A stretch of 26,176 nucleotides of DNA from a virus, in the IMG/VR virus record IMGVR_UViG_3300006853_000058, positions 1-26,176 of that record. One strand, given 5' to 3'. The position numbers were made by a program, and so were the translations under genes. Below, one piece after another: positions 2,631 to 11,419 of this stretch (positions are counted from its first letter, which is position 1; each line of letters opens with the position of its first letter). The notes beneath the pieces were generated by a model that saw only the letters and a program-made list of their open reading frames with translations, was not told the origin of the DNA and did not search any database.

Positions 2631-2811
2631 CGATGACCTCCTTCGGCTTGAACTCCCAGATGATCTGCATCGGGTCTTCCATCTCGTCGGCACAGATCGG
2701 GCAGATGATGTGGTAGATCAGGTTGAGCGCACCGAAGATCGTTGCGTCGTCCCCGAGCACGCGGTGGATGCCGCAAGCGCGGCACCACCCAGCCTCTGCT
2801 GTGACATCCAC
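2617..2811 (-). CDS. Small zinc-finger-like protein, 64 aa
   Basis: The peptide carries two Cys pairs, WCRACGIHRV and IICPICADEM, a C-x2-C...C-x2-C arrangement typical of a treble-clef or ribbon zinc site. The likely start is the GTG at 2811, in frame and directly after the ClpP-like gene's TGA at 2813-2815. The operator-like repeat at 2793-2809 covers codons 1-6, encoding the VTAE peptide seen in other genes. The Shine-Dalgarno is weak (GACGAGAT). The end overlaps the GTG of the primase zinc-finger gene. Function unknown. Confidence 0.6.
   Translation of the reverse strand: MDVTAEAGWCRACGIHRVLGDDATIFGALNLIYHIICPICADEMEDPMQIIWEFKPKEVIGDAT
2793..2809 (+). promoter_or_regulatory. Operator-like repeat copy 2, CCTCTGCTGTGACATCC
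   Basis: This copy matches the family consensus in 16 of 17 positions. It lies over the first codons of the zinc-finger-like gene at 2617-2811 and opposes the direction of transcription, the same relative orientation as most other copies. Confidence 0.6.
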
Positions 2812-2812
2812 G

Positions 2813-3328
2813 TCACACGATCTCGTCGACAAGGCCGTAGAGCTTGGCGCCTGCGGCGTTCAAGTACCACTTGCGGTGCGAGTAGATGTTCTGCCGAATG
2901 CCCCTACCGTTGCCCCGCTCGCCGTAGATCTGCAGCATCTGATTGAACATGACCTCGAAGTTGTGCAGCCGTTCCCGCATGGCGAGCATGTCGCCAGTGA
3001 AGTTCTCGATGCCAGGCGGGTGCAACATCAGCCTGGAGGCTTCACCCATCCGGCGCAGCTCACCAGCCTGCAACATGATCGTCGCGATCGAACCGGTGTA
3101 GCCGGCGGCGCGAGTGTTGATGTGCAAACCCTGCTTGCGCCGCATGCGCGTGACATCCTCGTAGAACCGAAGGCCGGCCGAAGGGCTGCCGCCCTCGGAC
3201 GAGATGCTCACCTCGACGAGCGCGTTCCGATCCTCCTGCAGGCACTGCTGGATCTGGAGCAGGGCCTTGGTCACCGCTTCGTCGGTGACCTTGCCGTCGA
3301 AGTAGTAGGTGTAGTCGACGTCACTCAT
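2813..3328 (-). CDS. ClpP-like serine protease
   Basis: The 171-residue protein has the ClpP/crotonase fold pattern: EVSISSEGGSPSAGLRFYEDV (oxyanion-hole glycines), AAGYTGSIATIMLQAG with a nucleophile candidate Ser80, and SRLMLHPPG with His103. The end, AAGAKLYGLVDEIV, matches the ClpP C-terminal helix. In my hand alignment to E. coli ClpP (EAVEYGLVD) the catalytic Asp position (ERDRFLSA) reads HRKWYLNA, so the Asp seems to be replaced. Phage ClpP-like proteins usually mature the capsid and sit beside portal and capsid genes; this one is among replication genes. The start ATG at 3328 has GGAG 6 bases upstream and overlaps the previous stop; an ATG at 3340 is less likely. Confidence 0.8.
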   Translation of the reverse strand: MSDVDYTYYFDGKVTDEAVTKALLQIQQCLQEDRNALVEVSISSEGGSPSAGLRFYEDVTRMRRKQGLHINTRAAGYTGSIATIMLQAGELRRMGEASRLMLHPPGIENFTGDMLAMRERLHNFEVMFNQMLQIYGERGNGRGIRQNIYSHRKWYLNAAGAKLYGLVDEIV

Positions 3329-3665
3329 CCGGATCTCCATAGCCCGCCTGCCGCAGCAGGTCTGTTCCGTCCTCGAGGGTGAGGATCATCAGCCACCTGT
3401 TGATGCGCTCCGGCCCATAGCCGTTCGGTCGCCAGACCACGAACGGAACACCCTTGCCGGCGTTCCTCACCGCCTGGTTGAGGGCTCCGGTCACGTCGCC
3501 CGGGGTGGCCTTGACCTCCGGGGAGAGGCCGGGCATGTTCTCGACGTCGATGCCGGACTCTCCGGCGCCCTTGCTGTAGGCGAAGGGCCAGCCGTGCTTC
3601 TGGAACCACTCGGCGACCATGCGCTGCGTGGCGTAGCCGCGGTGCTTACGGCTTTGGCTGGCCAT
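3321..3665 (-). CDS. PD-(D/E)XK nuclease, probable Holliday-junction resolvase-like
   Basis: This 114-residue protein begins with a basic helix (MASQSRKHRGYATQRMVAEWFQKHGW), followed by YSKGAGESGIDVENMPGLSPEVKAT and later VPFVVWRP. The ESGIDV...EVKA pattern supplies the D and E-x-K metal ligands of the PD-(D/E)XK fold, and the order resembles Hjc/VRR-type resolvases. It would cleave branched recombination or replication intermediates before packaging. The ATG at 3665 overlaps the upstream Cys-rich gene by 20 bases. The nuclease fold is well supported; resolvase specificity is inference. Confidence 0.7.
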   Translation of the reverse strand: MASQSRKHRGYATQRMVAEWFQKHGWPFAYSKGAGESGIDVENMPGLSPEVKATPGDVTGALNQAVRNAGKGVPFVVWRPNGYGPERINRWLMILTLEDGTDLLRQAGYGDPDE

Positions 3666-6047: not shown

Positions 6048-6592
6048 TTGCTGGCCTCCTGTAGGGCTGCGGCTCGGGTGGTTGCGATCTTGAGGTGCTC
6101 GTCGGTCCAGCCGTTGTTCTTGTACTTCGGGAACACCTTGCGGAGGTCCGCGAGCGTGGTCGCGGCGTTCAGCTCAGCCGCGATCGGGTCTTCACCAGTC
6201 TCTGCTGTAACGTTCTCGTCAGCAGAGGTGGACTCGGCGGCGCCGCTGGCGGGAGCAGAAGAAGAGGGGGAACCCTGCTTCGCCGCCGGCTTCGAAGAGG
6301 AGGGCTCTCCGGAACGAGTTCCGGATGACGAGCCAGAGCCTCCGGGAACCGGGCTCTGGCCGGTGTCGCCCTTCGACGCACTGGGCGCCGCCGAGAACTT
6401 TGAACGGAACGAGCGGCTGGCCTGCACCACACGCTCCATGACATCGGTCGCCTCGAGAGAGGCGAGCAGGGCGGCCAGCTCCTCAGCTGTGTCCGCTTCG
6501 ACCGTCAGCCAGGGCGCCTCGAAGCCGGCGCCTGCCTTCAGGGTCACCTTCAGAGGTACGCCGTAGACGTCCTCATCCTCAGAACCTGCCAT
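6044..6592 (-). CDS. Hypothetical protein with long Ser/Pro/Ala linker, 182 aa
   Basis: Residues 1-65 form an alpha/beta domain (VPLKVTLKAGAGFEAPWLTVEADTAEEL...). Residues 70-125 are a low-complexity Ser/Pro/Gly/Ala linker, and the end is a helical module (TTLADLRKVFPKYKNNGWTDEHLKIATTRAAALQ). The two-domain layout with a disordered linker suggests a tether. Two convergent operator-like half-repeats (6199-6227) fall in the linker, where sequence constraint on the protein is low. The ATG at 6592 opens a sub-block after the 41-base gap carrying the palindrome 6608-6622. Confidence 0.55.
   Translation of the reverse strand: MAGSEDEDVYGVPLKVTLKAGAGFEAPWLTVEADTAEELAALLASLEATDVMERVVQASRSFRSKFSAAPSASKGDTGQSPVPGGSGSSSGTRSGEPSSSKPAAKQGSPSSSAPASGAAESTSADENVTAETGEDPIAAELNAATTLADLRKVFPKYKNNGWTDEHLKIATTRAAALQEASK
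6199..6215 (+). promoter_or_regulatory. Operator-like repeat copy 3, TCTCTGCTGTAACGTTC
   Basis: A 17/17 match to the family consensus, inside the Ser/Pro linker of the gene at 6044-6592, read there as NVTAE. A reversed partial copy (CAGCAGAG, 6220-6227) faces it across 12 bases, so the pair also forms an 8-base perfect inverted repeat. Confidence 0.6.
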
Positions 6593-7672: not shown

Positions 7673-8562
7673 GCTGCCTTCCCCTCTTCCTCTGCTGTGA
7701 CATTCGGCTGATAGTTCGGGTCGAGCCGGTCGTACAGGTGGGACAGGTGACCGTCGGTGGTGTAGCAGGCGGCCGCGACGTCACACATCCGGCACGCCTC
7801 ACCCTCGTTCGGCGAGAAGTTCCCCGCACGAACACCCTCGATCGCCCCACCGAAGATCTGGTCCAGGTAGTCCTTGGTGTACTTGGCGAGCGGGACTGGC
7901 TCGGTGTGCTTGCCGTCCTTACCCATCCAGTACAGGCCGTACTTGGGCCGGGGGTACCCGGCCAGCTCCACCGCAGTGGCGTACGTGCCGAGCTGCAGCG
8001 GCGTCTTCGGCTTCTGACCCGACTTGATGTCCAGCACCGCCAGCGACTCGTCCGGCAGGTACGGCAGCCGGTCGATGACCGCGACGAACGGGAGGCCACC
8101 CAGCTCGATCTCGAGCCGCAGCTCGATGCCAGGCTCACCACCGAACATCGCCCACTCCCAGCGGTGCTCCTTGCGCCAGTCGACCCACCGCTGCACCATC
8201 TCCGGCGCCACCGTGTGCCAGTGGTCGGAACGCTGCTTCTCTTTCCCGCGGCCGCCGGCAATCCACTTCGACGGGTCGATACCCGACTTGGCCTCTGCTT
8301 CCGTGATCAGCTCGTCCAGCTTGGCGTTCGTCAATGCGACGACGTCGTCCTCTGCTGTGACATTCTCCCCCATCAAGAACTCGAGGCGGTCGACCTGCTC
8401 GGTTCCGCCGTGGACGGCGTTCCCGCCGATCGCGTACCAGGAGGGGAGCTGCGGGGCCTTGATGATCCGGGACAGCTCGTAGCCCTTCCCGCAGCGCAGG
8501 TAGCTGGTGTACCGGCTGAACGACCACATGTGCGACTCGTAGCCGGCGAGGTGGATGCTCAC
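7669..8562 (-). CDS. RecB/Cas4-like PD-(D/E)XK exonuclease with probable Fe-S cluster
   Basis: The 297-residue protein starts with the typical motif WSFSRYTSYLRCGKGYEL (first cluster Cys, C24). It has the nuclease core FVAVIDRLPYL, LAVLDIKSG and LQLGTYATAVEL (D, D-x-K and the Q/Y of motif QxxxY), and ends with ACRMCDVAAAC, the remaining three cysteines. This is the layout of Cas4/AddB-like 4Fe-4S nucleases, which resect DNA ends for recombination. Two copies of the operator-like repeat lie in it, both read as NVTAE: one in an insertion near residue 68, one at the extreme C-terminus. The GTG at 8562 has GGGGTGA upstream; an ATG at 8529 is possible. Confidence 0.8.
   Translation of the reverse strand: MSIHLAGYESHMWSFSRYTSYLRCGKGYELSRIIKAPQLPSWYAIGGNAVHGGTEQVDRLEFLMGENVTAEDDVVALTNAKLDELITEAEAKSGIDPSKWIAGGRGKEKQRSDHWHTVAPEMVQRWVDWRKEHRWEWAMFGGEPGIELRLEIELGGLPFVAVIDRLPYLPDESLAVLDIKSGQKPKTPLQLGTYATAVELAGYPRPKYGLYWMGKDGKHTEPVPLAKYTKDYLDQIFGGAIEGVRAGNFSPNEGEACRMCDVAAACYTTDGHLSHLYDRLDPNYQPNVTAEEEGKAA
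7689..7705 (+). promoter_or_regulatory. Operator-like repeat copy 4, CCTCTGCTGTGACATTC
   Basis: A 17/17 match to the consensus, spanning the last codons of the Cas4-like nuclease gene (read as NVTAE, followed by EEGKAA and the stop). The location at the C-terminal tip is where an added peptide is least harmful. Confidence 0.65.
8349..8365 (+). promoter_or_regulatory. Operator-like repeat copy 5, CCTCTGCTGTGACATTC
   Basis: Identical over 17 bases to copy 4, which is 660 bases away in the same gene. It is read as NVTAE in a stretch (LMGENVTAEDDV) between the N-terminal Cys motif and the nuclease core. Two identical 17-mers in one gene, in the same frame, are hard to explain by chance. Confidence 0.65.
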
Positions 8563-9531: not shown

Positions 9532-10053
9532 TTAACTGGTCTTGACTAGTTTAGACGGCGGAGACTCTTCCAGCTCCGGCCGGCGGATGACGGGATGCTT
9601 CCCGTCCGTCCCCTCGAAATCTTCAGGCTTGGCTGCGACGTAGTAGAAGCCGTCGACGGTGTCTCGGATGTAGGTCACCACCAGGCCGAGGGGAGCATCT
9701 CGCTCCGGCTGCGGCTCCGCGAGCCGCTCGAGCCAGGAGTCCAGATCCTTGAGCCGCTTCTGCTGGATGTGGCTGAGATCCACGCCGGCACGTCGCGAGT
9801 CCTCGAGCCTGAGCAGCTGCGCGATGTAGCTGCGGAGGTGCTCCGACCTCATCGGGCTCCACGGCAGCAGGTTCTTGTGTCGGATCAGTTTCGGGCCAAG
9901 CCCGTAGCGCTTGCGCGCTACGGCGATCCCAGCTCGAGTGACGCGCACGCCAGTGCGCTCGTACCACAAGTCCGCGGCCTGCTGAGCCGTCAGTCCCTGC
10001 TCGTCGGCCTTCTGCAGGAACTCCTTGTCCGGGCCGCCCTTCTGGTTGGCCAT
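9532..10053 (-). CDS. Immunity repressor, mycobacteriophage L5 gp71-like
   Basis: The 173-residue protein has a helix-turn-helix at about 18-52 (EQGLTAQQAADLWYERTGVR, then TRAGIAVARKRYGLG). A second domain at 58-145 follows, with LLPWSPMRSEHL, QQKRLKDLDSWLERL and DGFYYVAAKPEDF. From memory, L5 gp71 and Bxb1 repressor have the same order of landmarks: HTH, NWPW..., KKRLLSWWKML, GFRYVPRD. Those repressors bind one asymmetric operator and many dispersed stoperators as monomers. It lies beside the integrase and is divergent from it, in a control region with several operator-like repeats, so self-regulation is likely. The ATG at 10053 follows GGGGGAGACTGAAGG. This is a family call by eye, not by search. 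Confidence 0.75.
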   Translation of the reverse strand: MANQKGGPDKEFLQKADEQGLTAQQAADLWYERTGVRVTRAGIAVARKRYGLGPKLIRHKNLLPWSPMRSEHLRSYIAQLLRLEDSRRAGVDLSHIQQKRLKDLDSWLERLAEPQPERDAPLGLVVTYIRDTVDGFYYVAAKPEDFEGTDGKHPVIRRPELEESPPSKLVKTS

Positions 10054-10092
10054 CCTTCAGTCTCCCCCAAGAGATCTACTCGTCCGTAGGGT

Positions 10093-10107
10093 TGCAAGGG
10101 TACGTAA
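10093..10107 (+). repeat. Arm-like repeat, left copy TGCAAGGGTACGTAA
   Basis: This 15-base element recurs inverted at 10268-10285 as TGCAAG-3 bases-GGTACGTAA. The two lie about 85 bases either side of the central inverted repeat at 10178-10200, which is what integrase arm-type sites around an attP core look like. Confidence 0.45.
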
Positions 10108-10130
10108 CCAAATAGAGACTTGACAACAGA

Positions 10131-10147
10131 TCTCTACTGCATCAACC
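10131..10147 (+). promoter_or_regulatory. Operator-like repeat copy 9, TCTCTACTGCATCAACC (weak)
   Basis: It keeps the TCTCTACTG core but diverges after it. It lies a few bases downstream of a perfect TTGACA (10120-10125) in the repressor-integrase gap. Confidence 0.4.
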
Positions 10148-10177
10148 GCATACCGAACGTTGGCTACGCTCCGTGCG

Positions 10178-10200
10178 GCACTGGTACACGTTGCCAGTGC
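10178..10200. other. Candidate attP core: inverted repeat GCACTGG-N9-CCAGTGC
   Basis: Perfect 7-base arms (10178-10184 and 10194-10200) flank a 9-base centre in the 313-base gap beside the integrase. It is nearly centred between the inverted arm-like repeats at 10093 and 10268. Tyrosine recombinases bind inverted core sites around a 6-8 base crossover, which fits approximately. No tRNA 3' end sequence is recognisable here, so the attachment site assignment is inference. Confidence 0.4.
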
Positions 10201-10216
10201 GTCTGCTGTTACGCAA
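10200..10216 (+). promoter_or_regulatory. Operator-like repeat copy 10, CGTCTGCTGTTACGCAA (weak)
   Basis: It keeps TCTGCTGT and AC but has changes at positions 2, 11 and 14. It begins at the last base of the inverted repeat 10178-10200, so repressor binding here would touch the candidate attP core. Confidence 0.4.
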
Positions 10217-10267
10217 CATTGGGGGTGTCGACCCGTGCAAACCCGCAGGTCGGCCACGAGGCGCAAC

Positions 10268-10285
10268 TTACGTACCAGTCTTGCA
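10268..10285 (-). repeat. Arm-like repeat, right copy (inverted), TGCAAG-ACT-GGTACGTAA
   Basis: This is the inverted counterpart of 10093-10107, with a 3-base insertion. See that entry for the interpretation. Confidence 0.45.
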
Positions 10286-10294
10286 TCCGCTGGA

Positions 10295-10311
10295 TCTCTG
10301 CTGTAACGTCA
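10295..10311 (+). promoter_or_regulatory. Operator-like repeat copy 11, TCTCTGCTGTAACGTCA
   Basis: It matches the consensus in 15 of 17 positions and lies 56 bases before the integrase ATG. A protein bound here would probably interfere with integrase transcription. Confidence 0.6.
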
Positions 10312-10319
10312 GGTCAGAG

Positions 10320-10349
10320 CCTCTACTGCACGTCTCTACTCCAGTACGC
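10320..10349 (+). promoter_or_regulatory. Operator-like repeat copies 12 and 13 (two weak tandem copies)
   Basis: CCTCTACTGCACGTCTC (10320-10336) overlaps TCTCTACTCCAGTACGC (10333-10349); the copies start 13 bases apart. Both keep only the left half of the consensus. They lie just upstream of the integrase Shine-Dalgarno. Confidence 0.4.
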
Positions 10350-10366
10350 ACACCGAAGGGGGTCTC

Positions 10367-11419
10367 ATGGCAGTCCGAAGCACCCGACTCAGCGACGCGA
10401 TCAACGACTACCTGGCGCAGCGGAAGATCGAGGGGTACGCGAAGAGCACCCTCAACAACCAGCGGGTGATCCTCGACCGCACGCTCAAGGTGATCGGCAA
10501 CCTGCTGCTCCACAACATCACCGACTTGCACATCCGTGAGGTCATGGCCGTGGCCGGCCAGACCCGCTCCGCCCGGACCCGCACGAACGACCATGCCTGC
10601 CTGCGGCAGTTCTTCAACTGGGCAGCTGAGACCAAGCGGATGCCGAAACACTCCAACCCGATGGCCGGCTCGCGGCCGCCCCGGTACTCGGTGGAGGAAC
10701 GCCGACGTGTCCCCGTCGGCCAGTTCCCGGCCCTGATGGACAGCGCCAAGCACCCGCGGGACCGCATGCTGATCGTCCTGGCCATCTACCTGCTGGCCCG
10801 CTCAGTGGAGATCACCGGCATCCGGTTGAAGGACGTCCGGCTGGACCAGGGGGTGATCCGGATCACCGTCGCCAAGAAGAGCAACGGCCAGGTCGTCACC
10901 GACGACATGGCCATCCCGAAGAAACTGGACGCCGAGCTGCGCGCGTACCTGCAGTGGTACTCGAGCGAGTTCCCCGAGATGAACCCCGAGTGGTTCCTGG
11001 TGCCGGGCATCTCCGGGCCACGGTTCGTCTCCCGCTACGAACGCACCTACGGTCAGATGATCCCGTGGCGCCGTTTCCGGCGCCCGTCCGCCGTGATCAA
11101 CCGGTGCTTGGCGTCGATCGGTTTCGCGGTCCGCGACGAGGACGGCGCCTCACTACACGAGGGGATGCACACTCTGCGCCGGTCAGCCGCCCGGGCCCTG
11201 TTCGACGTCCTCGTCAAGAAGGGGTACGACGGCGCCCTGCGCCGCGTCCAGGCCATGCTGCACCACAAGAACGCGTCGATGACCGAGCATTACATCGGGA
11301 TCGACCTGGATCGGCAGCAGCGCAACGCGGACATGATGGGCGCCGAGGTGTACCCGTTCGAAGCTGAGAACGTGGTCCACCTGGGGCAGGCCCAGAACCG
11401 GGCTTCTACTGGCCAGTAA
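10367..11419 (+). CDS. int: Tyrosine-type phage integrase
   Basis: The 350-residue protein has an N-terminal SAM-like core-binding domain (about 5-100: SDAINDYLAQRKIEGYAKSTLNNQR...) and a catalytic domain. Visible catalytic residues are R145 (LLARSVEI), K170/K171, H268-x2-R271 (MHTLRRSAA), H300 (LHHKN) and the nucleophile Y309 (TEHYIG). It integrates the phage genome at an attachment site, for which 10178-10200 is the nearby candidate. It has no obvious separate arm-binding domain. The ATG at 10367 follows GAAGGGGG. With its small downstream neighbour it is the only recognised plus-strand unit in the window, and it is preceded by several operator-like repeats. Confidence 0.93.
   Translation: MAVRSTRLSDAINDYLAQRKIEGYAKSTLNNQRVILDRTLKVIGNLLLHNITDLHIREVMAVAGQTRSARTRTNDHACLRQFFNWAAETKRMPKHSNPMAGSRPPRYSVEERRRVPVGQFPALMDSAKHPRDRMLIVLAIYLLARSVEITGIRLKDVRLDQGVIRITVAKKSNGQVVTDDMAIPKKLDAELRAYLQWYSSEFPEMNPEWFLVPGISGPRFVSRYERTYGQMIPWRRFRRPSAVINRCLASIGFAVRDEDGASLHEGMHTLRRSAARALFDVLVKKGYDGALRRVQAMLHHKNASMTEHYIGIDLDRQQRNADMMGAEVYPFEAENVVHLGQAQNRASTGQ

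Follow-up and report, generated by a model that had tools for sequence, protein, structure and literature searches.

Between a leftward repressor-like gene and a rightward tyrosine integrase gene, the viral DNA analyzed here (IMG/VR record IMGVR_UViG_3300006853_000058; the whole stretch of 26,176 nucleotides is referred to as the window) has a gap of 313 bp (10054-10366). The question raised by this locus is whether the gap is the phage attachment site (attP) and, if so, how such a site is organized. The gene on its left (9532-10053, minus strand, 173 amino acids), which would form the left border of an attP/operator module, is immunity-repressor-like. It matches the transcriptional repressor family phrog_3929 (E = 1.4e-14), has homologs in Streptomyces phages that are annotated as immunity repressor, and belongs to the same family as the repressors of the phiHau3/Issmi type, although the identity to these is about 32% and the operator sequence is the window phage's own. 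No phage DNA resembling the window was found, and searches with the repressor or the neighbouring nuclease did not yield closer relatives covering the gap. Integrase searches yielded phages of the same repressor-integrase arrangement, six of which have an aligned upstream region (L007-L011 and L018). No tRNA or tmRNA core was found in the window, a sigma-70 promoter scan found no promoter, and the search for a host attachment site (attB) gave no recurrent chromosomal match save to the box region described below. An 18-base match at 10289-10306 to two genomes was rejected, being one near-identical AT-rich locus in both and unrelated. Elsewhere in the window a ClpP-like protease gene (2813-3340) lies amid phage replication genes.

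The integrase gene (10367-11419, plus strand, 350 amino acids; PF00589, phrog_1) encodes a core-binding and a catalytic domain only. No upstream extension of the frame is possible, as the stretch from the stop at 10304 to the ATG at 10367 lacks a start codon. The integrases of alignment A2 members L007-L011 begin in the same way, and Angelica Int, which has an arm domain, aligns to residue 2 of the window integrase only from its own residue ~62. In an AlphaFold model (six family members) the core-binding domain starts at residue 7 and helices at residue 8; the four core-binding helices come first and are directly followed by the catalytic domain (mean pLDDT 77, pTM 0.57). Foldseek matched the model to XerA, to Brujita Int (5vfz, a top fold match) and to residues 75-356 of lambda Int. 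Lambda-type arm sites require an arm-binding domain on the integrase, and because the window integrase is without one, there is no reason to expect P and P' arm sites. Arm-less tyrosine integrases are described for Brujita, BPs, Halo and Weirdo19ES (Lunt & Hatfull 2016, as cited in PMC7194413), with which the window shares the two-domain make-up. In Brujita-type systems attP is within the repressor gene (PMC7194413), whereas the boxes of the window lie outside its repressor gene and attP would be upstream of this divergent gene. Brujita Int is weakly similar to the window integrase (30% over 110 amino acids, E 1e-5), and no strict box was found near the Brujita int gene. The cluster K1/F1 mycobacteriophages Angelica and Tweety have integrases with an N-terminal arm domain, a tRNA/tmRNA core and paired arm sites (PMC3203893). 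Their attP resembles the window in its place 5' of int and in the box-like CAGGTC sequences beside the core, and their integrases differ from that of the window in carrying the arm domain.

The place of attP can be read from the junctions of a relative's prophage. The actinobacterial genome G397 contains a prophage with a related integrase, only 31% identical to that of the window, and the same phrog_11667-like gene adjoining it. Leftward of this integrase lies a host cyclase-family gene that is cut short after GGCCTGGTACTGGAACAACA. The remainder of the gene is found on a second contig, preceded by ...TGTGGTCCTGGTACTGGAACAACATCACC; the phage side there carries a repressor with homology to the repressors of the window and L007. 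Homologs of the cyclase-family gene are uninterrupted in 14 related genomes, and from its interruption in G397 we infer that the two contigs hold opposite ends of a single prophage. The junctions share an 18-bp core, CCTGGTACTGGAACAACA, inside the host gene, with int at attL and the repressor at attR. The crossover of the G397 phage thus took place between repressor and integrase, attR being located upstream of a repressor gene that is left whole and not within it as in Brujita-type systems, and the target was a protein gene, not a tRNA gene. Since both junctions fall between repressor and integrase, the equivalent gap of the window is very probably the attP region, and the crossover of the window phage itself would lie inside it. 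The G397 core contains CTGGTAC. Tried as the attB of the window, this core gave a match in the window no better than chance, and no recognisable box pair was found upstream of the G397 integrase. The prophage thus supports the place of attP and not its details. The interrupted gene is kynurenine-formamidase-like and is entered at its WYWNN motif (L389 9274-9480; L414 ~1480-1520). Genomes G620 and G321 and the Aeromicrobium relatives gave no further usable junction pair. In G321 a second related integrase adjoins an apparently truncated glycosidase-like gene (L393 10628-12068), possibly another protein-gene target.

The initial annotation had also proposed an attP in this gap and had drawn it as a mirror-image array, with GCACTGG (10178-10184), a 9-base spacer and CCAGTGC (10194-10200) as the core, TGCAAG-GGTACGTAA as the left arm (10093-10107, plus strand) and TTACGTACC-AGT-CTTGCA as the right arm (10268-10285, minus strand). 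Letters and coordinates of all three were correct on re-check, and the right arm does share ACTGGTAC with the core, on opposite strands (plus in the core, minus in the right arm). The outer inverted pair is gapped, owing to three extra bases in the right arm. The near-mirror spacing had been regarded as unlikely by chance; the array proved to exceed chance only weakly. When the 313-bp gap was Markov-shuffled, 15% of the shuffles contained a perfect inverted repeat of at least 7 bp, or 6% with a spacer of 6-9, and the gapped outer pair, which is the best in the gap, was equalled in 9 of 400 shuffles. The mirror spacing (71 and 68 bases) was spotted post hoc and was given no independent weight. 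When conservation was tested on six integrase-bearing relatives (L007, L008, L009, L010, L011, and L018), the 7-9-7 repeat and the left arm occurred in none, and of the right arm only GTACC was kept. The attP claim is supported for the region, by the G397 junctions, but not for the P and P' arm sites.

As judged by comparison with these relatives, the conserved part of the gap is a pair of direct box copies about 100 bp further right, interleaved with operator-like sites. The box consensus, GCRAAMCCGCAGGTCAGAG, was built from copies next to tRNAs and integrases elsewhere. Box1 (GCAAACCCGCAGGTCGGCC, 10237-10255, plus strand), an att-associated box, agrees with it at 16 of 19 positions, better than anywhere else in the window and at a level reached in 0 of 1000 gap shuffles, and its position is conserved in L007-L011 and L018. 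Box2 (CTGTAACGTCAGGTCAGAG, 10301-10319, plus strand), with 14 of 19 positions among the next best in the window, is a second copy in the same orientation, 64 bp or about six helical turns away. The spacing is likewise 64 bp in L008, L009, L010, and L018, and it is 65 bp in L011. In L007 Box1 is strong and Box2 weak, and relatives L019 and L020 are without the box. There was no Rfam match to the box region. After the CAGGT of Box1, at a distance of 21 bases, follows GTACC (10272-10276), a candidate core half-site. The resulting CAGGT-N21-GTACC (10246-10276) is found at the same offset in L007, L008, L009, and L010, of which L008 and L009 are closely alike (85% integrase identity) and count once. 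Because the window shares this element with L007-L010, the proposed right arm is seen to overlap the right end of another element. An exact search of viral contigs for CGCAGGT-N19-TTGTACC gave no new contig with an integrase of the window's family. The 15 bases around GTACC in L008/L009 agree with the G397 attB core at 13 of 15 positions, on the other strand. That the window phage crosses over near GTACC is, in our estimate, nearly an even call. An arm-less attP could alternatively have its crossover in the 7-9-7 repeat (10178-10200) as a two-site core, the outer pair then being due to chance and the boxes being accessory sites at a distance of 37-100 bp. A 9-bp centre between two 7-bp half-sites would make a possible recombinase site, and the repeat holds CTGGTAC on the strand and in the orientation to repressor and integrase seen in the G397 core. 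However, its match to that core is no better than chance and it is unconserved in L007-L010, which do keep Box1-N21-GTACC, and we regard this location as unlikely.

The operator-like copies reported earlier are real, as the window contains 9 matches to the dispersed consensus CTCTRCTGTRACNTY where 0.75 would be expected. The copies in the gap are all on the plus strand: TCTCTACTGC (10131-10140), closer to the repressor start, O1 (TCTGCTGTTACG, 10202-10213), a weaker copy 95 bp before O2, O2 (CTCTGCTGTAACGTC, 10296-10310), an exact consensus match which overlaps Box2, O3 (CTCTACTGCACG, 10321-10332), which adjoins Box2 25 bp after O2, and O4 (TCTCTACTCC, 10333-10342). The copies at 10296 and 10321 thus straddle Box2. 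In L009 the repeat GGGWTGATGTAAAC (spacing of 95 and 25 bp) and in L010 the repeat GCCACCAANGNAAC (94 and 25 bp) occupy the same places relative to Box2. The operator-like sequences of the window, L009, and L010 are mutually unrelated, yet their geometry around the boxes is the same. L008 has an operator-like pair at 24 bp, and the different operator spacing of L007 does not fit the common geometry. These data support an interleaving of the putative operators with att-type elements; the overlap with the attachment region that had been suggested is found at Box2 but not at the proposed core. Operator-like copies occur outside the gap as well in the window, L010, and L008, as expected of dispersed operators. 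Four exact sites in the window (2794-2808, 6200-6214, 7690-7704, and 8350-8364) lie inside coding regions on the opposite strand, and each encodes a (N/D)VTAE peptide, which suggests that the DNA site is selected for in different genes. A repressor of a known family is thus combined with many asymmetric sites across the genome, the arrangement of dispersed-operator immunity. The stoperators of cluster A mycobacteriophages are short asymmetric repeats scattered genome-wide beyond the immunity region. The operator-like repeats of the window are dispersed likewise and differ from stoperators in their sequence and in that several lie inside coding sequence.

The box is widespread outside this phage. 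The pattern AAMCCGCAGGTCAG was present in 132 of 247 Actinomycetia genomes, with about 300 copies (summed over the per-genome table) against 9 for the reversed pattern, a control that ignores codon bias while some box copies do fall in coding sequence. Among 40 copies sampled from genomes of this set, 11 were located either no more than 33 bp from a tRNA or at the 3' fragment of one; the orientation relative to the tRNA was variable, and copies beside tRNA genes often had no integrase nearby. A scan of viral contigs found a recognisable tyrosine integrase in 7 of 119 box loci, the box being 62-127 bp from the integrase frame in six of the seven. In L242 the box is on both sides of a tmRNA 3' fragment in inverted orientation, box-like sequences flank the core of the Tweety attP region on both sides, one such sequence is beside the tRNA-like core of D29, and CGCCAGGTCAG occurs close to the annotated attP of Angelica. 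The actinobacterial genome G052 (L173-L192) has 29 copies of CCGCAGGTCAG against 5 in the reversed control; several of them directly follow tRNA 3' ends or partial tRNA fragments (e.g., L184 1535, L187 1465) and look like integration scars. The box is also near integrases on the AT-rich viral contigs L235 and L322 and may not be limited to high-GC Actinomycetia. A literature search on the box sequence found nothing on integration. Because the box is common to integrases with unrelated cores, with or without arm domains, we infer that a host protein is involved, and we take mIHF to be a candidate. We tentatively propose, with the balance somewhat against it, that site-specific integration in actinobacteria makes general use of GCRAAMCCGCAGGTCAGAG as an accessory site, that a single shared host protein (mIHF or a different architectural protein) binds it whether or not the integrase has an arm domain, and that its placement in this phage family lets the repressor control access to it.

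That operator-like repeats keep constant distances around Box2 would also fit a conserved int promoter, in which case the gap would be a divergent promoter/operator region only, its boxes and repeats regulatory, and attP elsewhere, for example downstream of int. We consider this improbable, as both G397 junctions are between repressor and integrase and as the box elsewhere is found next to tRNA genes, in many cases without a nearby integrase. Least probable is a lambda-type attP with its core at 10178-10200 and P and P' arms at 10093-10107 and 10268-10285 bound by an N-terminal integrase domain, for which the correct coordinates, the outer pair as the best in the gap, ACTGGTAC common to core and right arm, and CTGGTAC on the same strand in the G397 core can be cited, but against which stand an integrase without that domain, a left arm and core that none of the six relatives has, a right arm overlapping Box1-N21-GTACC, and an inverted repeat expected by chance at 6-15%.

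The interpretation that we prefer, and hold to be probable, is that an arm-less integrase has its attP/operator module in the gap (10054-10366) and that the boxes function there as accessory sites. The two-domain integrase, the conserved boxes with their spacing and operator geometry, and the prophage junctions found for a relative in the corresponding gap were computed directly. The window would then derive from a temperate actinophage whose arm-less integrase recombines a short core in the gap with a host site. Box1 and Box2 would serve as accessory sites, most likely bound by a DNA-shaping host protein, and the phage repressor would bind three operator-like sites, one at 10202 and two, at 10296 and 10321, on either side of Box2. 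In a lysogen, the repressor could in this way block both the expression of the integrase and its assembly on attP.

An arm-less integrase has no obvious source of directionality, and the fixed geometry of boxes and phage-specific operators would make control of such an integrase by a repressor on the attachment site testable. If our proposal for the box is true, many attachment sites used by phages and integrative elements of actinobacteria are marked by a single short box. The box would then aid in finding attP sites and integration scars, and it would point to a host recombination factor.
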